IMG/VR virus record: IMGVR_UViG_3300005795_000025 | Span: 1-32,852 of that record | Direction: 5' to 3' (one strand) | DNA length: 32,852 nt | Origin: a virus | In this document: piece after piece, positions 8,244 through 28,933 of the stretch | Position numbering within the stretch: the first letter of the stretch is position 1 | Layout: every line of letters begins with the position of its first letter | Made by a program: the position numbers and the translations under genes | Notes under the pieces: model-generated | Seen by the model: the letters and a program-made list of their open reading frames with translations, nothing else | Databases searched by the model: none | Told to the model about the DNA's origin: nothing

Positions 8244-9134
8244 TCACTTAGGTTGGTTTACCGAACGCCTGATTCGTTCCGGCTCCACCGGCGCGCCGAT
8301 CCCGAAGACGCGCCAATGATCGAAATCTAACCCCTCAATGGCTGGGAGGTGCGGACAGCGCTGCATCGTGGCAAAGATGGTGTCGGGGGGTAGTTCGACC
8401 CCATCACCACCTACTCGCACCATGACGCCGGGGTCAGGCGGCAACTTCAGGTACGCGATCTCTGGCGACATGTACATCGGGCGGGTCCCGAGCCCTCTGT
8501 CGTTAAGCACTTCGCGGAGCGACGCCATGTCGCGCAGAAAGAATGAAAGCGTTTCGGGCACAACGATAAACGGCAAAAGATCCGCCGCGTCCGCTGAGTA
8601 AAGCGCTGCACTGAAAGTCGAATATGCCTCGATTATCTTGCGGTGTCCCTCGATATCAATCTGCCGCTCGGCATCTTCGATGTCGCCTTTGAGGTATCCC
8701 TCTCCCCATTTGTGACGATAGTCCAGCGCTTCTATTGCCTGTGCTGGCGAATACGTCGAGACGCCGGGGTGCTCGATGCGCAGAACAGCTTTATCCCCGC
8801 TGACTAGCATGTTCGCGTCAGCATCGTAAGTAATTGCCGCCAGAAAGTTGTCATCGGGATCTGAACACACAAGTGGAAGGAATTGCTCTGAACGGTCGTC
8901 AACGAACGTGCCCACCAAAGTGACAGCATCAACCAACGCTTCAGCCTCACCGCGACTGAACCAACGGCGAAACTTGTCTCGCTCAAGCCTGGACGCCAAC
9001 TCGTCGAGTAGATGCTCGGAAACGATGAGTTCGACCTCTCCTGAAAGGGCTCGACGGACGAGTTCCCCGGTAGGACCGTTAGGCGAAATCGCAGCTGCAA
9101 TAAACACGTTCGTATCGAGCACGACCTTAATCAA
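8244..9134 (-). CDS. PIN-domain toxin with long C-terminal extension
   Basis: Residues 1 to about 125 form a PIN nuclease of the COG1569/PIN_3 type: V-L-D7-T-N, conserved acidic Glu45 in L-L-D-E-L-A, D-P-D-D95-N, and V-S-G-D114-K complete the metal-binding set. Such toxins are usually about 130-150 residues and cleave RNA. Here another 160 residues follow (about 137-296), with a helical, acidic middle and a beta-like end; I do not recognise this part. The small gene 11 nt upstream on the same strand is the likely antitoxin. The catalytic residues look intact, so it should be an active RNase unless inhibited. The extension could be target-binding, regulatory or a fused inhibitor. Confidence 0.8.
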   Translation of the reverse strand: MIKVVLDTNVFIAAAISPNGPTGELVRRALSGEVELIVSEHLLDELASRLERDKFRRWFSRGEAEALVDAVTLVGTFVDDRSEQFLPLVCSDPDDNFLAAITYDADANMLVSGDKAVLRIEHPGVSTYSPAQAIEALDYRHKWGEGYLKGDIEDAERQIDIEGHRKIIEAYSTFSAALYSADAADLLPFIVVPETLSFFLRDMASLREVLNDRGLGTRPMYMSPEIAYLKLPPDPGVMVRVGGDGVELPPDTIFATMQRCPHLPAIEGLDFDHWRVFGIGAPVEPERIRRSVNQPK

Positions 9135-9145
9135 TGATCGAGGCC

Positions 9146-9385
9146 CTATCTCCGTCGACTGCCGGCACCGACATGGCCCGGCTCTCGTTTCTCCACGCGC
9201 ATGCGCTCAACCTCGGCCGAAACGATCTCATGCGCCTCGGCGTCGGTAACGGGCTCGCGATACGCGGAGTTGCCAACCAACTCCGCAAAAACTTGCTCCG
9301 CTAGCGTCCCGTCGCTACTTAAGACGAGGCCTGTTCGCTTCTCAAGGCGGGCACGCGCTGCACGTTTCCGATCTGCTACGGACAT
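9146..9385 (-). CDS. Small antitoxin of the PIN toxin
   Basis: The 79-residue product is rich in Arg and Glu, with a basic N-terminal helix (VADRKRAARARLEKR), a short middle helix with E-Q-V-F-A-E-L, and a charged C-terminal helix with E-R-M-R-V-E-K-R. No classical HTH or ribbon-helix-helix is obvious. Position immediately upstream of the PIN gene, size and operon structure make antitoxin the best call. The ATG at 9383-9385 is chosen with GAAGG about 9 nt upstream; an in-frame GTG at 9391 is also possible. The upstream frame ends in a TAG just before it. Confidence 0.65.
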   Translation of the reverse strand: MSVADRKRAARARLEKRTGLVLSSDGTLAEQVFAELVGNSAYREPVTDAEAHEIVSAEVERMRVEKREPGHVGAGSRRR

Positions 9386-9391
9386 AACCAC

Positions 9392-21811: not shown

Positions 21812-24800
21812 TCATCCGAATGGCCTTCCTGCATGCCGCATCATCTGGCGACCCTGGGCACGCTGAGCGCTGTGCACCGCGGCCATGCCGTCAGAGAATG
21901 TCGGGTTGTTGATGTTGACCGAGTAGTCGTTTCCACCACCGGCATTCGGATTGATGGCGAGCGTGTCCAAGTTCGCGATCTTGGCGATATTCGCGAACTC
22001 AGGCGCCGTGAACACCGGCTCCGGAGCACCTGACTTGTTCAACGCCAACCCGCCGTGCGGGATCATTCCGCCCTGGTCGTAGAGCTTGATCGGCAAGGTC
22101 TTGAGCCAATCCTCGACCCAATTTCCCGCACCGATCGTGACCGGCAGCTGCCCGTCGATCTCGCTCCGAGGGAACGAACGCGTCACGAAGTCACCCAGCG
22201 GATCTCGCATTGCCTCCGCAGCCGAGGACTCCGGCAAGGTGGATCCCGGCTTCGGCTTCTTGAACTCCGGAAGCGGAATATCCAGCCAACGAGAATTGAC
22301 GCCGAATATCTCGAGCGCCGAATCGACCGCGATCCCCACCAGGTCGGACCCGTACCTCTTGAGTCGATCCTTCAGCGAGAAATCGCCGTTGGCTTCCTTG
22401 TCCTTGTCCTCCTCGACCTTCTTGCGAGTCGCGGCGAGCGAGTTCTGAGCCGAGTACACCGAAATATCGGCCTTCTCCTTCTCGAGCGAGGTCGACTCGG
22501 GATCGTTGTACACCTTGTCCCGGGCCAACTGCGCATCCAGCAGGGCAATCTCGGCATTGCGCACCGAAATCGCATCGTCACCCATCTCGCCGGTCAGAAC
22601 AGGAGCAGGATCGTTCGACGTCGAACTCTTGCCGTCACGTTTCTGCTCCAGCTCGCGAACCTTGAGCTCGGCCTGCTGAACCTTCAGCTCCGCCTGGTCA
22701 CGATCGGCCTGCGACTTCTTGTCGTTGGCGTTGATCTTGTCCCGAGCCTCCCGCGCCTGAATTACCGCCACACGGGCGGATTCGAGTGCAAGAGCATCCT
22801 TCTCGGTCCACTCCACCGGCTTCTCGCCACGCAAATACGCACCCGACTTGCTGTCCCAACCGTCGATGAGTTCGTTCGGCAGGTGGAACTTCACCGGGAA
22901 CTGCGACGACTGAGCATTCGCACGGTTTCCGCCGATGCCCGATGTACCGTGAGCACCGCCCGATTCCGCCGACATGCCGGCGATGGTCGCCGCCATGTGT
23001 TCCTTCGAGATGCCGAGCTGGAACTGAGTGCCCGCAGGACCCAAACCGGCTTGCAGACCCGCCACGCCGCCACGACCGTTGAAGAAGTCGTACGTGGTGT
23101 ACAGACGCTTCACCGATCCGGTGATGCCCATGACGATCTGCTGCAACCAGCCGACAAATCCCGAGCAGTCGAATTGCGTCGGCCCCGTACCGCCCCAGAG
23201 GTACTTATTACCCTCGACCGATCGGCCGGCCGCGAGCCCTGCCTCGATACCGTTGCGGCCACCTTCGGCGAACCGGGGAAGATTCTTCAACCGCGAGTCA
23301 TCGCGATTGATCATCCCCAGCAGCCAATCCCACTTTTCCGACGAGCGGCCGTTGACGATCCACTCGCCCTTGTCGACCCAGGTTGTCGGTACGCCATCGC
23401 GACCCATTCCGAGGAAGCCGTCAACACGATCGGTGCCCGGCCCTGACGTGGGAAGTCTTGCGCCGTCGGCATTTCGAGGAAGCCGCCCACCGTAGTATCT
23501 GCCAGCGACCTGAGGCAGCCCCTGTTGGCGATACAACTCATTGATCGCGTCGTTCGACCAACCGCCACTCTGCTGCGCAACGGTGTAGAGCTGGTTGAAC
23601 TGAACGGTGACCGTCTTGTCCTTCAGTGCGTCCAAGGCTGCCTTCGCGGCCCCGCCGTCGATCAGGAACTTCTCAATCCCCGCAATGAACGCCTTAGGGT
23701 CCGCAACCTTGCTCGACAGGTCGAACAGTTCCTGCAAACCAATGTTCTTCTGATCCTTGAGCTTCTCGATATCAAGATCGGCGCCCGGCTTTACCTCGAG
23801 CTCGTCGAGGTACTTCATGAAGGCGTCGGCGCTGCCCGCATTGAAATCGAACTGCTTGAGGTCGAGGTCGATCCCGGCCATCGCCTTCAGATTGTCGAAT
23901 GCGATCATGTTGTCCATGGCCGTGCTCAACTTCATCTGAAATTCGTTGTCGTCCATGTCGATCCGGATCTGGCCGCTAGGCAAATCCGTAACGTCGGCGC
24001 CCATGCGACGCAGTTCCGCCAGGATGCTCGGGTCGAAATCCTTCTCGACCGTCAGAACCTTCGGCTTACCTGGCTCGATCTGCATCATCTGAGACCAGAC
24101 CTCAGCAAGCCCCTTGGTCACATCGTCGGCGCCCTGGAGACCAACCTGAATTTGGATGGCACGCTCGTTATAACCGAGATACTCCAGCGCATTTCGCATG
24201 TCGCCGATTTCGATCCCGAACGACTTACTGGTGCCTTCGACCTGCTGCTGAACGCTCGAGAAGATCTCGTTGATGTCCTTGCCGGCGTTTGCCATCTGGA
24301 CTGCGTTCTGGATGATCTTGACGCTGGTATCTTCGAGATCTTGACCGTTTTCGGTCAGTGTCGAAATACGCCCGTTATCCAGCAGCTCGGAGCTTGCACC
24401 CTTCGTCTGGTCAATCGGCGCCGCTTGCAACAGTTCACGAGTGAGCTTGTTGTTGTCGTTCGTGGCCTGCTTTTCATCGGGGTTGATGCCCGCAATCAGC
24501 TGCAATGAGCGATACATTGCATCGCTCTTCTCGGTGGCAGTGGCCGCTTCGTCGCCGATCGTCTTCAGGAGATCGGACATCTCCAGATAGCCTGGCGTGA
24601 GTTCCGCAACGGCAGCACGCGTGTTCTGGAACCGTCGCCTCTGACCGTCGAGCCAGATGAATGTTTCCATTCCAGCTTCGGTTGATCGGTCCAACTGCGA
24701 TGTCAGGTAACCAAACTCGCCGTTCGTCCCCGAAATTGCGCCGGCAAGTTCCTTGTTGGTGACACCCAGGCCGCTGAGTGTCGCCTCAACCATTTCAGCA

Positions 24801-26965
24801 GAATCTCGAACCGCAAGATCCTGCTTCATGCGCTGGTTGAACGAATCGCCGGTACCGAAGAGCGCATTGCCGGCGTTCTGCCATGCGCCGCCGGCCTGGG
24901 CCCAGATTCCTGGACCGTTGGCGATCAGCGTCTTCTGTGCTGTGCGTGCCTCCTCGATTCGGCTCGTCAGGGCCTCTGTGGCCTGTTCCGACATGGCACC
25001 ACCGGACGCCTGCAGCGCCTTGGCCAACTCGAACTGAGATTCGGCGGTGCCTTGTGTGGCGACCGTCAGCGCTTCGTGGAATCGCTTCGACTTCTGAATC
25101 TCGCCATTGATTCCCGAGTACGCGACCATGCCACCGATGAGCGCGATGCCGACCGGACCCCCCAGGGCGCCGGACACCGCGCTCATTCCGCGACTCAGGC
25201 CGCTTGCAGCAGAACTCATTGCCGAGAGACCAGCAGCGCCGACGCCGCCCGCAGCAGCGCCCATCCTCGAGATGAACGACGTCGTCCCATGAACTGCCTG
25301 ACCGGCCAACAGGTGAACCGACGCATAACCCTTCGCCTGCAGGGCGGATGCCTGCATCGCTGCGGCCGTGGCCTTCTCCTGCGCCGCGTACGCCCGAAGC
25401 CCCGGCATTACGTTGGAATACGCCGCACCCATCTTTCCCAAGACTGTGTTGGTTGCAGTCATGCGGGCTACGAAACTCGACGCCCGGTCACTGAGCGTGA
25501 GCATCGTGCCGCTGAAACGGCTCATCGAACCGCTCGCAGCGCCATATGTTGCGGCATTGGTGCGCACATCGGCGTTGAACCGCGAGAACGCACCACGGAC
25601 ACCGTCAACGGCATTTCCTGTCCTCTGCCACATTCGCTGATATGCGCTCAGCGGTTGCGTTCCGGCGGCGGCCTGCGCCGTCAGAGATGCCATCGACGGA
25701 GCGATACGTGCCATGATCGCGGGCACGGTTTTGAACAGGAAGAACGCTGCAGCCAGTGCGGTGACTACACCCTGGTTGTTCTCCATCAGGCTCGACATGG
25801 TGCTCAGGGCAGGAACGAGCACCCCGTCCGCGAGCTGCGCTGTGAGCTCGAGAGTCGAGAGGAGCAACGTCCACGACGAAACCCCGAGCGCGCCTGATGC
25901 TTCGGCGAACGATCCGACGATGCCCTTCACCGCTGGCCAGGCCTTCACGGCTGTGTCGCCGAGTGAATCAAACACGCTCGTGAAGCGGTCCCACTCCGAG
26001 CCGATCTTCGCACCGTTCTCCGACTGGAACGTCGCGAATGCCTTCTTGCCTTCCTCGCCGAACTTCTGCAGCTTTGGCAGTCCTTGGTTGAACACGCGAT
26101 GATCAAGCGTGTCAGCAAATTTCGAGACGAGCGGCGTGGCAACGTCGATTCCGGACGTGACATCCTTGAGCCAGTTCGCCGAGCGGCTGAACGTCGGCTT
26201 AAGCGCTGCCGCGCCCACGCGGCCCATCGCCGCCATCGTGTTCGCCCACGCAGCCGACACGGTATTGCCAGCGGTGGCGGCGCCGCCGATGTTCTTCTCG
26301 ATCGCCGCCAAATATGTTGCGGAGTCGACCTTGCCTTCGGCGACCATGTCCGAGAGCGCCTCTTGCGTGACGCCCATTTCGGTGGCGAGCCACTGGTAAA
26401 TCGGCAGCCCGCGGATTGCGAGCTGGTTCAGATCAAGGGTGTATGCCTTGCCCTTGGTTTGAACCTTGTTGATCACCGCGCCCATCTCTTCGATGGATGT
26501 TCCGGCGATCGTTGCTGCGTCGGCAGTCAGCGACAGGTAGCGCGTCAGGTCCTGGCCGGGCTTGATTCCGGCGGCGACGGCCGACGCTGAAATTGTTGCA
26601 GCTTCACCGAGACCGAAAGATGTGCCCTTCACCGAAGCGAGGGCGGAATCCATGATCTTCGCGGTACTGAGGGTCGTATGCCCAAGCCCTTCGAGCTTGC
26701 CCTCGGCATTGTCGATCGCAGTGAGGCGGCCGAAGCCCTTGTACAGCGCCGTACCAATTGCCGTCGATACCGCGGCGCCCGTAGCCGCGGCCCCCGCCAT
26801 GAGGGTCTTCCCCATGGCTGCCGACATCTTCGAGCCCATGCTGTCGCCGGCCTTTTCGCCCTGCTGGACAACCTTGGACAAAGACTTCGACACTGCGGCC
26901 GGAATGCCATCGGTGCGCGCGGCAATCGGGACGTACATGGTCGCCAGTTCAATGCCACCGGCCAT
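21812..26965 (-). CDS. Tape measure protein with NlpC/P60 domain
   Basis: At 1717 residues this is the longest gene in the window. It starts with a tape-measure N-domain (about 60-330: G-R-L-T-A-I-D-N-A-E-G-K-L, D-L-N-Q-L-A-I-R-G-L-P-I-Y-Q-W-L-A), followed by Ala-rich helices with hydrophobic segments and long coiled-coil-like stretches. A peptidase domain is embedded at about 1250-1340: Y-L-W-G-G-T-G-P, F-D-C1267-S-G-F and H1323-M-A-A give the Cys/His pair of NlpC/P60 enzymes. At about 0.15 nm per residue the length predicts a tail near 260 nm, a long siphovirus tail. The domain could open the cell wall at injection. The ATG has GGAGG about 7 nt upstream. Long + strand frames over this gene are composition shadows. 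Confidence 0.93.
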   Translation of the reverse strand: MAGGIELATMYVPIAARTDGIPAAVSKSLSKVVQQGEKAGDSMGSKMSAAMGKTLMAGAAATGAAVSTAIGTALYKGFGRLTAIDNAEGKLEGLGHTTLSTAKIMDSALASVKGTSFGLGEAATISASAVAAGIKPGQDLTRYLSLTADAATIAGTSIEEMGAVINKVQTKGKAYTLDLNQLAIRGLPIYQWLATEMGVTQEALSDMVAEGKVDSATYLAAIEKNIGGAATAGNTVSAAWANTMAAMGRVGAAALKPTFSRSANWLKDVTSGIDVATPLVSKFADTLDHRVFNQGLPKLQKFGEEGKKAFATFQSENGAKIGSEWDRFTSVFDSLGDTAVKAWPAVKGIVGSFAEASGALGVSSWTLLLSTLELTAQLADGVLVPALSTMSSLMENNQGVVTALAAAFFLFKTVPAIMARIAPSMASLTAQAAAGTQPLSAYQRMWQRTGNAVDGVRGAFSRFNADVRTNAATYGAASGSMSRFSGTMLTLSDRASSFVARMTATNTVLGKMGAAYSNVMPGLRAYAAQEKATAAAMQASALQAKGYASVHLLAGQAVHGTTSFISRMGAAAGGVGAAGLSAMSSAASGLSRGMSAVSGALGGPVGIALIGGMVAYSGINGEIQKSKRFHEALTVATQGTAESQFELAKALQASGGAMSEQATEALTSRIEEARTAQKTLIANGPGIWAQAGGAWQNAGNALFGTGDSFNQRMKQDLAVRDSAEMVEATLSGLGVTNKELAGAISGTNGEFGYLTSQLDRSTEAGMETFIWLDGQRRRFQNTRAAVAELTPGYLEMSDLLKTIGDEAATATEKSDAMYRSLQLIAGINPDEKQATNDNNKLTRELLQAAPIDQTKGASSELLDNGRISTLTENGQDLEDTSVKIIQNAVQMANAGKDINEIFSSVQQQVEGTSKSFGIEIGDMRNALEYLGYNERAIQIQVGLQGADDVTKGLAEVWSQMMQIEPGKPKVLTVEKDFDPSILAELRRMGADVTDLPSGQIRIDMDDNEFQMKLSTAMDNMIAFDNLKAMAGIDLDLKQFDFNAGSADAFMKYLDELEVKPGADLDIEKLKDQKNIGLQELFDLSSKVADPKAFIAGIEKFLIDGGAAKAALDALKDKTVTVQFNQLYTVAQQSGGWSNDAINELYRQQGLPQVAGRYYGGRLPRNADGARLPTSGPGTDRVDGFLGMGRDGVPTTWVDKGEWIVNGRSSEKWDWLLGMINRDDSRLKNLPRFAEGGRNGIEAGLAAGRSVEGNKYLWGGTGPTQFDCSGFVGWLQQIVMGITGSVKRLYTTYDFFNGRGGVAGLQAGLGPAGTQFQLGISKEHMAATIAGMSAESGGAHGTSGIGGNRANAQSSQFPVKFHLPNELIDGWDSKSGAYLRGEKPVEWTEKDALALESARVAVIQAREARDKINANDKKSQADRDQAELKVQQAELKVRELEQKRDGKSSTSNDPAPVLTGEMGDDAISVRNAEIALLDAQLARDKVYNDPESTSLEKEKADISVYSAQNSLAATRKKVEEDKDKEANGDFSLKDRLKRYGSDLVGIAVDSALEIFGVNSRWLDIPLPEFKKPKPGSTLPESSAAEAMRDPLGDFVTRSFPRSEIDGQLPVTIGAGNWVEDWLKTLPIKLYDQGGMIPHGGLALNKSGAPEPVFTAPEFANIAKIANLDTLAINPNAGGGNDYSVNINNPTFSDGMAAVHSAQRAQGRQMMRHAGRPFG

Positions 26966-26982
26966 GGGCCACCTCCAGTTAT

Positions 26983-27645
26983 TCAGTTGTCATCGAGGTG
27001 CTTCCACGTCTTACGTGTCACAATCCGGCCGATTGTCGACCGCGAAACGTGGAAGAGGGCAGCAAGATCGGCGTAGGTGCATCCACTCGAGGCGAGCGCG
27101 CGCACTGCCAGAACTTGCTGCGTGGTGAGCTTCGGCGTCCCTGGTTTGAGTTCGTCGTCGAAGGTTTCGCTGGATTCGGCGTCGAGGATCTCGGGTCGGT
27201 CGGCAATGGCGAGCGGAACCTGTTCCCGGTTGTCCGCCTTGAGTCTCTTGCGAAGCTCAGAGACTGGTAGCACCGTTTTCGGCTTGCTCTCCTCGGGCGG
27301 TGTGACGCCCGGGCGTGGCATCGGCTCAGGGCGCTTCGCCTTCGAATTGCCTCCGCGCTGCCAGTTTCCGCCCTGGATTCCGTCAAAGATTCCAGCGAGC
27401 AAGTGTGCGTGCAGATCCCAGTGAAGATCAGGATCCTTGCGGCGCATATACGCGCCGTTCGGTGGGGGGTACTTGAGGTAGCACTTGAGGTCCCACCATG
27501 AGAGATTCGCGGTGCCGAGGAAATCCAGCGATCTACCCATCGGGAGCAGATCAGCTTGGATCGCCTCGGCAACCTCCTCCTCGTCCTCTAGGTATCCGAG
27601 GAGGCTGAGGATTCCCCCACTGGCGTCTTCGACTCGTTTTCCCAA
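26983..27645 (-). CDS. Tail assembly chaperone, frameshift extension with C-terminal HTH
   Basis: This frame overlaps the end of the preceding chaperone gene in the -1 frame, and its only upstream start is a TTG inside the overlap. It is therefore best read as the extension made by -1 slippage, giving a fused product of about 326 residues. The first 95 residues (L-G-Y-L-E-D-E-E-E-V-A-E-A-I, W-W-D-L-K-C-Y-L, H-W-D-L-H-A-H-L-L-A) match actinophage chaperone-T sequences. The last 45 residues carry a clear helix-turn-helix: T-T-Q-Q-V-L-A-V-R, then Y-A-D-L-A-A-L-F-H-V-S-R-S-T-I-G-R-I-V with T-R-K-T-W-K-H-L, the pattern of HTH segments that end many phage homing-endonuclease-like proteins. A DNA-binding end on a chaperone is unexpected. 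Confidence 0.8.
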   Translation of the reverse strand: MGKRVEDASGGILSLLGYLEDEEEVAEAIQADLLPMGRSLDFLGTANLSWWDLKCYLKYPPPNGAYMRRKDPDLHWDLHAHLLAGIFDGIQGGNWQRGGNSKAKRPEPMPRPGVTPPEESKPKTVLPVSELRKRLKADNREQVPLAIADRPEILDAESSETFDDELKPGTPKLTTQQVLAVRALASSGCTYADLAALFHVSRSTIGRIVTRKTWKHLDDN

Positions 27646-27962
27646 TGAGTGTCGATCTGGCCGAGCTCACCGTCGGTGAGCTTCTCGAGGATCGCGTAAT
27701 CCTTGGCACTCACGTGGAGGCTGAGCATCTTCAGAACGATGTCTCGGCCAGAGCGCCGCACTGGCTCCAACGGCTTCCCATCTTCCGGCTGCGGCTCGTT
27801 CTTGCCCGAGAGCCAGTCGTAGAACTTCTTGGACTTTTCGACCGGGAAGTACTGGATCTTCGGAACCGTGAAGAAGAGCGGATTCTGACGCCCCTTGATC
27901 GGGATCTCGAACTCGATCTGAATCGAAGGATCGTGGGCAGGAGTGACGCGGAAGATAGCCAT
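27588..27962 (-). CDS. Tail assembly chaperone, N-terminal product
   Basis: The 124-residue product starts MAIFRVTPAHDPSIQIEFE and carries E-F-E-I-P, P-L-F-F-T-V-P-K and K-F-Y-D-W-L, then S-L-H-V-S-A-K-D-Y-A-I-L-E-K-L-T-D-G-E-L-G-Q-I, and ends in G-E-S-S-A-S-S-D-T. This order and the G-E-S-S-A-S-S end match the short chaperone of siphoviruses, made upstream of the tape measure and extended by slippage. The ATG at 27960-27962 is chosen because the longer frame to 27998 adds sequence with no support. Confidence 0.88.
   Translation of the reverse strand: MAIFRVTPAHDPSIQIEFEIPIKGRQNPLFFTVPKIQYFPVEKSKKFYDWLSGKNEPQPEDGKPLEPVRRSGRDIVLKMLSLHVSAKDYAILEKLTDGELGQIDTHWENESKTPVGESSASSDT
27612..27618 (-). 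promoter_or_regulatory. Probable -1 slippery site GGGGGAA
   Basis: In the short chaperone frame the bases read GTG GGG GAA TCC. The tRNA on GGG can re-pair one base upstream, also GGG, giving GGA ATC CTC in the extension frame. The frames and the overlap agree exactly with a -1 shift. A GGGAAAA run about 30 bases upstream lies in the wrong phase for a canonical heptamer from this frame. Confidence 0.65.
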
Positions 27963-28027
27963 GGTTGGACCAAGCCTTTCGAAAATGAAATAGCGCAATG
28001 TCGACTACGTGAAAGCGTTTGACGGAC

Positions 28028-28097
28028 GGGCCTGTTGGTGTCCCGCCCCGTGAAGGGCAGGCCCGGTCCAATGGTGTTGACACCTCACGGGGCGGGA
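28028..28097 (-). terminator. Structured element after the major tail gene
   Basis: Two perfect inverted repeats interleave: GGGCCTG (28028-28034) with CAGGCCC (28058-28064), and TCCCGCCCCGTGA (28041-28053) with TCACGGGGCGGGA (28085-28097). Nested folding is not possible for both at once, so the RNA can form either hairpin or a pseudoknot. Lying between the highly expressed tail-tube gene and the chaperones, it probably acts as a leaky terminator or an mRNA-end stabiliser. Confidence 0.6.
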
Positions 28098-28105
28098 GAA
28101 TGCGG

Positions 28106-28933
28106 TCAGACCGCGGCGACGGTCACAGCGCCGGGAGGAGTGAGACCGGATCCCGACGCGGTCACGAGACCGGCGCCGTTCTTGAACACGACCGTGAACG
28201 GACCACCGGTAGAACCGGTCACCTCCACGTTGCCGGCGCCGACGGTCGGGAGAGCCTCAAGCGCGGTCCTCACGGCTGCGGCCGTCGGATTGAATGCGAT
28301 GCCGTCCGTGGTCTCGCCGTCGACGTACACGTTCCATGCACCCGCAGTAGAACCGCCAGGCAGCGTGAACAGCTTCGTCACGGAACCATCAGCGGAACTG
28401 ATGGTCATGACCGCGTTGTTGCCGTTCTTCTCGAACGAGGTGATTTCCACTTCGTACGAGATCGTGTCGGTGTGCACGTACACACGGTCGCCGGTCAGGC
28501 TCGGCTGGCCGTCGGGAATGTAGTTCCGCACGTTCGTGTCCTCATCGACGGTGTCGAGGACCCACGAGGAGTGTGGCAGCGTCTTCTTGTTCTTGTTGAC
28601 CGTGATCACGTTGCCGGAGACCACGACGTTGCTCTCACCGAAAACGGTCTTGAGCACGGTCGCGTTCTTGGACTCCATGAACTTGAACTTGAAGACCAGG
28701 CCGTACTTGGTCTGAAGGACTTTGACGACCGCGCCACCGAAGGCGTTCTTCTCGGTCTTGTCTCGGGTCTCCGACTCGGTCATGCCGTCCTCGCCGACAT
28801 AGCCGTGATCGAGCCAGGCGGGCGGAAGGGCAGAGCCGGCCGGGCCGGGCGCCGGAGTGCCGAGCGGAGAACGGAACACGACGCCGTTGGCGAGCGGTTC
28901 GGAGGTAAGGATGTTGCCGGCAGAAGATGCCAT
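28106..28933 (-). CDS. Major tail (tube) protein with C-terminal appended domain
   Basis: The 275-residue product has a tube fold in residues 1 to about 190 (V-V-F-R-S-P-L-G-T, A-W-L-D-H-G-Y-V-G-E-D-G, G-G-A-V-V-K-V-L-Q-T-K-Y, V-L-D-T). After this comes an 80-residue domain starting near K-L-F-T-L-P-G-G-S with G-E-T-T-D-G-I-A-F-N-P-T-A-A-A-V-R-T-A-L-E-A-L-P-T-V-G-A-G-N-V. That pattern is common in small repeat domains appended to phage structural proteins. The appended domain probably lies outside the tube, decorating the tail. AAAGGGG upstream fixes the ATG. Confidence 0.88.
   Translation of the reverse strand: MASSAGNILTSEPLANGVVFRSPLGTPAPGPAGSALPPAWLDHGYVGEDGMTESETRDKTEKNAFGGAVVKVLQTKYGLVFKFKFMESKNATVLKTVFGESNVVVSGNVITVNKNKKTLPHSSWVLDTVDEDTNVRNYIPDGQPSLTGDRVYVHTDTISYEVEITSFEKNGNNAVMTISSADGSVTKLFTLPGGSTAGAWNVYVDGETTDGIAFNPTAAAVRTALEALPTVGAGNVEVTGSTGGPFTVVFKNGAGLVTASGSGLTPPGAVTVAAV

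Follow-up and report, generated by a model that had tools for sequence, protein, structure and literature searches.

Few recoded phage proteins are as conserved as the tail assembly chaperones, which are regarded as pure assembly factors. In phage lambda the short form gpG and the frameshifted form gpGT are made in a ratio of about 30:1; the G part acts on the tape measure protein, and the partner of the T part is the tail tube protein (PMC5009743). The heptamer GGGGGAA has been reported with PRFect as that of all "fivetwo" sites in the SEA-PHAGES data, about a thousand frameshifts (PMC10885494), and a GGGGGAA site was assigned as well to the frameshift of corynephage phi16 (PMC5506516). A second group of described systems concerns the C-terminal ends of homing endonucleases and their DNA-binding domains. 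The last ~50 residues of the I-CreI-like protein gp14 of phage LittleE are reported to be related to the C-termini of HNH proteins, and this C-terminal module is therefore known to move (PMC3706429). CapR of the Vibrio satellite PLE, described as related to homing-endonuclease DNA-binding domains, represses capsid expression of phage ICP1 (PMC10448857).

We analysed a stretch of viral DNA of 32,852 nucleotides (IMG/VR record IMGVR_UViG_3300005795_000025, in the following "the window") in which these two types of protein appear to be joined. It is reasonably likely, in our judgement, that the C-terminal 50 residues of its gpGT are a DNA-recognition module captured from a homing endonuclease, which has been kept and gives gpGT a DNA-binding tail. 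No description of a helix-turn-helix (HTH) on a tail assembly chaperone was found in the literature searched, for the most part openly accessible papers.

The Chaperone Locus and Its Frameshift

The ORF at 26983-27645 on the minus strand encodes 220 aa and contains the T frame (26983-27618) of a G/GT chaperone. Together with the ORF of gpG it forms a pair of overlapping ORFs, the second in the -1 frame, with a slippery heptamer present and with the genes of the major tail protein and the tape measure protein on either side; both G and T are homologous to known chaperones in the PHROG profiles (Table 1). Judged by its sequence, the window protein is a lambda-type G/GT tail assembly chaperone. 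It has in common with these chaperones the gene order major tail protein - G/GT - tape measure, the -1 frameshift at GGGGGAA and the T core motifs GGI..L, LSW.D and NWQR.G...P..RPG. The nearest of them is that of the Rhodococcus phage ReT1v, whose T protein matches the window T at 44.5% over residues 1-109. Unlike the window protein, the T proteins of ReT1v and of phage Avani end shortly behind the core and lack an HTH. Rhodococcus is the probable host: 250-435 bases in the queried part of the window align with Rhodococcus plasmids at 88-93%, and the closest kin among named phages is one that infects Prescottella equi.

Table 1. Features of the chaperone locus in the window (positions count from the first letter of the window).
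Feature	Position	Strand	Evidence or remark
Tape measure protein, directly downstream	21812..26965	-	ORF list; shares N-terminal homology with the tape measure of named phages
HTH domain, homing-endonuclease C-terminal type, ends TRKTWKHL	26995..27132	-	Pfam, PHROG, AF2 helices, pN/pS
Flexible linker, T core to HTH	27133..27222	-	pLDDT about 37-43; pN/pS 0.36 (20-codon stretch)
T domain (core) of gpGT	27223..27618	-	PHROG 1326 (tail assembly chaperone), E 3.9e-29, residues 8-141; alignment
gpG, short form of tail assembly chaperone (124 aa)	27588..27962	-	E 1.7e-19 to PHROG 23607 (tail assembly chaperone); flanked by the genes of the major tail protein and the tape measure
-1 slippery heptamer GGGGGAA (zero frame G GGG GAA)	27612..27618	-	Invariant in the window and L002-L008
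Major tail protein, upstream	28106..28933	-	ORF list; named by synteny with annotated phages alone

The heptamer is unchanged in 8/8 sequences, i.e., in the window and seven relatives (L002-L008), and it is found in 13 of the 14 named-phage relatives. The upstream GGGAAAAC (27636-27643), in turn, varies and reads GGGAGAAC or GGGAAAAT in some relatives. In L006 (the same contig as L032/L044) the T frame has a stop at codon 4, after GGGAAAAC and just upstream of GGGGGAA. Because this stop separates the two sites, the slip in L006 must occur at GGGGGAA, and GGGAAAAC was rejected as a slip site on both counts, its lack of conservation and the intervening stop. Since the HTH is encoded after the frameshift, it is part of gpGT (about 326 aa by our own count) and absent from gpG. 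Within the T frame, about 43 bases 3' of the slip site, the RNA at 27494-27569 has a structure stronger than that of synonymous randomisations (z -3.7), which could be a frameshift stimulator.

A Helix-Turn-Helix Domain at the C-Terminus of gpGT

The preliminary description, made from the letters of the DNA, had read a clear HTH at the end of the slippage product (the ORF ends in KLTTQQVLAVRALASSGCTYADLAALFHVSRSTIGRIVTRKTWKHLDDN followed by its stop), and this reading is borne out by Pfam, PHROG and AlphaFold2 (AF2). With the 48-aa end alone as query, the Pfam families HTH_Tnp_4 (E 1.6e-6; 28.1 bits, cut-off 27) and Xre-like-HTH (E 7.5e-6) are both above cut-off; with the whole 220-aa protein both fall just under it (23.9 and 23.4 bits). 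The best PHROG matches to the C-terminal end are an HNH endonuclease (phrog_20467, E 1.3e-8), a DNA-binding protein (664), an HTH protein (517) and an endonuclease (6156). NCBIfam profiles gave nothing near cut-off.

In the AlphaFold2 model, computed from an input alignment of 21 rows, a helical T core is followed by the poorly ordered linker of Table 1 and then by three helices at model residues 166-177, 182-189 and 193-201 (block pLDDT 73-87). When model residues of about 158-211 were compared with solved structures by VIA-align, about 45 residues could be placed on the DNA-binding HTHs of IstA (8q4d, Z 6.7), Tc3 (1tc3, Z 6.6), GcrA (5yiu, Z 6.3) and Hin (1jj8, Z 5.4), and the HTH of gamma-delta resolvase was matched as well. 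These scores lie in a modest range (Z 5-7), and since a mitochondrial ribosome chain tops the same list (Z 6.8), Z alone is not decisive; the absence of I-HmuI from the list proves nothing either way. Foldseek returned 0 matches in the PDB at E <= 0.001, and a sequence search of the solved structures gave E > 1 throughout. A chance HTH-like segment was rejected on the profiles, the model and the selection described below.

Likeness to Homing-Endonuclease C-Termini

That the HTH is typical of phage homing endonuclease-like proteins, as had also been noted from the sequence, agrees with what we found in other viral contigs. Five contigs fetched with the T protein encode proteins of the HNH/NUMOD4 type (L009, L010, L012 and L013) or the GIY-YIG/NUMOD3 type (L011), and all five end in an HTH plus VTRKTWKH[VIL]. 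Pfam recovers HNH_3, NUMOD4 and NUMOD3 in this set, HNH_3 in L013 just below cut-off; in L011 Pfam gives NUMOD3 alone and the GIY-YIG assignment was made by eye. The window HTH is 43-51% identical to the tails of L009 and L011-L013, a likeness inflated by the recruitment of these proteins partly with the peptide VTRKTWKH, by which their last eight residues were preselected. T7 gp7.7, which was not recruited in this way, has a similar end and matches the window HTH at 48-50%. Matches to the HTH occur in 661 records, and among 60 rows taken from these at even steps most of those with an annotation are HNH endonucleases or HTH proteins, and none is a tail chaperone; free-standing HTH proteins with a module of the window type are common in phages.

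The likeness to the HNH and GIY-YIG endonucleases (L009-L013, T7 gp7.7, PHROG 20467 and 6156) thus extends to the HTH sequence, its C-terminal position and the terminal KTWKH[VIL], whereas gpGT carries the module on a virion assembly protein and has no nuclease domain: a Pfam search at E up to 5 brings up no nuclease domain, be it HNH, GIY-YIG or another. gpGT is therefore not itself a homing endonuclease, which would have a nuclease domain in the same protein, although its C-terminus is of the endonuclease type. HNH_3 is also absent from the window record and from the other HTH-bearing records, which may be fragments. As in the comparison of LittleE gp14 with HNH proteins, a module of ~50 residues would have shifted between unrelated N-terminal domains, to another nuclease type in LittleE and to a chaperone in gpGT (PMC3706429). 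In a sister prophage without HTH on its chaperone (G011), two HNH genes, one of them with the window HTH type, lie at C1:36042-38275, far from the chaperone gene; a free-standing HNH gene of this type is a possible kind of donor.

Selection on the Fusion

When the eight near-identical sequences were compared in their 28 pairs, pN/pS was 0.060 in the T core (140 codons), 0.357 in the linker (20 codons) and 0.069 in the HTH end (51 codons, model residues 161-211), values that reflect selection over shallow time and, for the linker, a small control. Variable codons altering the residue number 3 out of 17 in the HTH, 8 out of 44 in the core and 6 out of 9 in the linker. The HTH count departs from a 75% neutral expectation (binomial p 1.1e-6) and from that of the linker (Fisher p 0.028), and it is indistinguishable from that of the core (p 1.0). 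The HTH is under purifying selection and constrained like the chaperone core. A loose linker between two constrained domains is what one expects of a functional fusion, and a decaying remnant would not look so.

The proposal in the preliminary description that an intron-type endonuclease "relic" had been captured has consequently to be given up with respect to the relic: relaxed selection is not seen in the HTH, and a trace of the nuclease is missing. It might still be argued that the HTH is a neutral passenger, i.e., what remained when a homing endonuclease gene had been inserted after the chaperone gene and mostly deleted, a piece tolerated and not yet lost. Homing endonucleases are often located within essential phage genes or close to them (PMC10448857, PMC3706429), and the free-standing HNH genes of the sister prophage G011 would fit such an origin. 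But with a selective constraint equal to that of the chaperone core, no remnant of the nuclease, and a second lineage that keeps the HTH at the same place (see below), we regard this explanation as quite improbable.

Distribution Among Relatives and Probable Number of Captures

The extension is rare. Among 50,697 phage records, none of the 485 matching ones covers 80% of the T protein at any place, and in all 14 T proteins examined from named phages the chain ends soon after the core and the HTH is missing. An IMG/VR search with the T protein as query brought up seven near-identical prophage contigs, and besides them five loci that match the end only or little more. Among IMG/VR loci anchored on the tape measure protein (best 80 of 245), 51 have a T-core match and nine have the HTH, namely the seven already known and two further ones (L045/L046). 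Pooling all fetched loci (forward frames, window excluded), the HTH is present in 9/142 distinct T-core ORFs, or 9/135 if a full core and a stop inside the locus are demanded, frequencies that are if anything overstated because part of the loci was fetched with HTH-bearing queries. Scans of genome contigs, and megablast of window positions 11000-32852 against phages, found no relative. The HTH is not typical of the chaperone family. The check that had been suggested earlier, a search for relatives with the same C-terminus and no HTH similarity, does not apply here, as the relatives mostly lack any such extension. A one-off or a sequencing oddity was rejected, given the seven further near-identical contigs and the second lineage.

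This second lineage (L045/L046) is only 28% identical to the window in the T core and 30% in the HTH, which ends in GRTWAHVGGE and matches PHROG endonuclease 6156 (E 3.5e-8). The model of L046 has three helices arranged as in the window model, and among the 40 listed of 215 matching records its HTH is closest to HNH endonucleases (51-53%). The nearest named phage to the L045/L046 T core is Mycobacterium phage Avani (51%), without HTH; nearest to the window T core are ReT1v, L035 and L036, none of which has an HTH. In a T-core tree of 90 rows, from which the HTH columns were omitted, the HTH proteins fall into two groups set apart by starred branches and are united in 0% of 200 bootstraps; the AU test against a single HTH clade gave p 0.0299. 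Since each HTH is more similar to the tails of HNH endonucleases than to the other HTH, two captures are suggested, and from these sequence comparisons capture of the HTH twice appears likelier than once in Rhodococcus-type prophages. Alternatively, T cores might have been swapped under an older fusion, a scenario we do not rank first; the HTH also tracks the tape measure type common to both lineages, whose N-termini in the window and in L045/L046 share 91-92% identity at the protein level and about 76% at the DNA level.

The latter association speaks for a different role of the domain, the main rival of our reading, in which the captured HTH would now be a protein-protein docking piece, e.g., on the tape measure protein that follows it in every case, and would have lost DNA binding. 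Of the best 80 of 245 loci, nine have a tape measure N-terminus that shares at least 91% identity with that of the window, and it is exactly these nine that carry the HTH, while the next best (72%) goes without it; chaperones of the G/GT family contact the tape measure and the tail tube (PMC5009743), and conservation of the HTH alone fits a protein-protein role equally. However, HTHs only 30% identical between the lineages facing tape measure N-termini 91-92% identical do not form the pattern of a conserved interface, and basic endonuclease-like ends (TRKTWKHL, GRTWAHV) are kept in both lineages. Such a docking role therefore seems unlikely to us. Even further down we place the possibility that the HTH occurs as a small DNA-binding protein of its own, released by linker cleavage or separately made from an internal start: the disordered linker is long and free-standing proteins with the module are common in phages, but both lineages retain the fusion in frame, which makes this very improbable.

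A Possible Role of gpGT in Gene Control

The reading we prefer, a captured and retained DNA-recognition module, implies the following sequence of events. The module would have been captured in frame behind a normal T domain, connected by a disordered linker and without the nuclease part, and it would be carried by the rare frameshift form gpGT only, with gpG free of it. The G and T parts would carry on ordinary chaperone work, G on the tape measure and T on the tail tube, while the HTH, tethered by the linker, would bind DNA. Such binding is likely in view of the net basic charge of the HTH (8 K+R vs 3 D+E) and its endonuclease-type sequence. The recognition helix differs between the two HTH lineages and does not indicate a shared DNA site.

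That the chaperone might also regulate had been put forward as the second option in the preliminary description. As to the purpose of such binding, our best guess is a feedback in which those gpGT molecules that are free of tail assembly bind somewhere on the phage DNA and so adjust the expression of late genes, although a regulatory target in late gene control is speculative. A precedent for the mechanism is CapR, which like gpGT has a homing-endonuclease-type DNA-binding domain and acts on late structural genes; it differs from gpGT in that it is described as a satellite-encoded protein with a Zn-finger rather than an HTH and with no chaperone fusion (PMC10448857). In its complete form, with gpGT as a chaperone and at the same time a sequence-specific DNA-binding regulator made only by frameshifting, with surplus gpGT feeding back on late genes, and with the DNA-binding half recruited from homing endonucleases more than once, this proposal is tentative and we consider it rather doubtful as a whole. 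If true, a selected DNA-binding tail on the frameshift product alone would couple gene control to the constant proportion of G to GT. The fusion is also a case in which a virion-assembly gene has appropriated the DNA-recognition module of a selfish element, it seems on two occasions.

Other Features of the Locus

An imperfect inverted repeat (27001-27025/27031-27055), of which the outer 9 bases are perfect, lies within the HTH codons, and the antisense frame of the repeat (27001-27055) itself reads HTH-like (57% over 21 residues). A selected RNA hairpin or operator at this place is not supported, as 38 out of 1000 synonymous randomisations fold as well and covariation is not above that of shuffles. 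Rfam has no family within 26900-28200. An inverted repeat upstream of G was not adopted as an operator; by eye it is a terminator-like hairpin, and the second lineage has its own.

Elsewhere in the window, a PIN-type nuclease gene (8244-9134) and a small gene upstream of it (9146-9391) form what by eye resembles a toxin-antitoxin pair (8244-9391). In Rhodococcus phage ReT1v-1 (L014, 490-2583), a tail-spike-like gene of glycoside hydrolase family 55 is annotated between the major tail protein gene and the chaperone genes, which is an unusual position.
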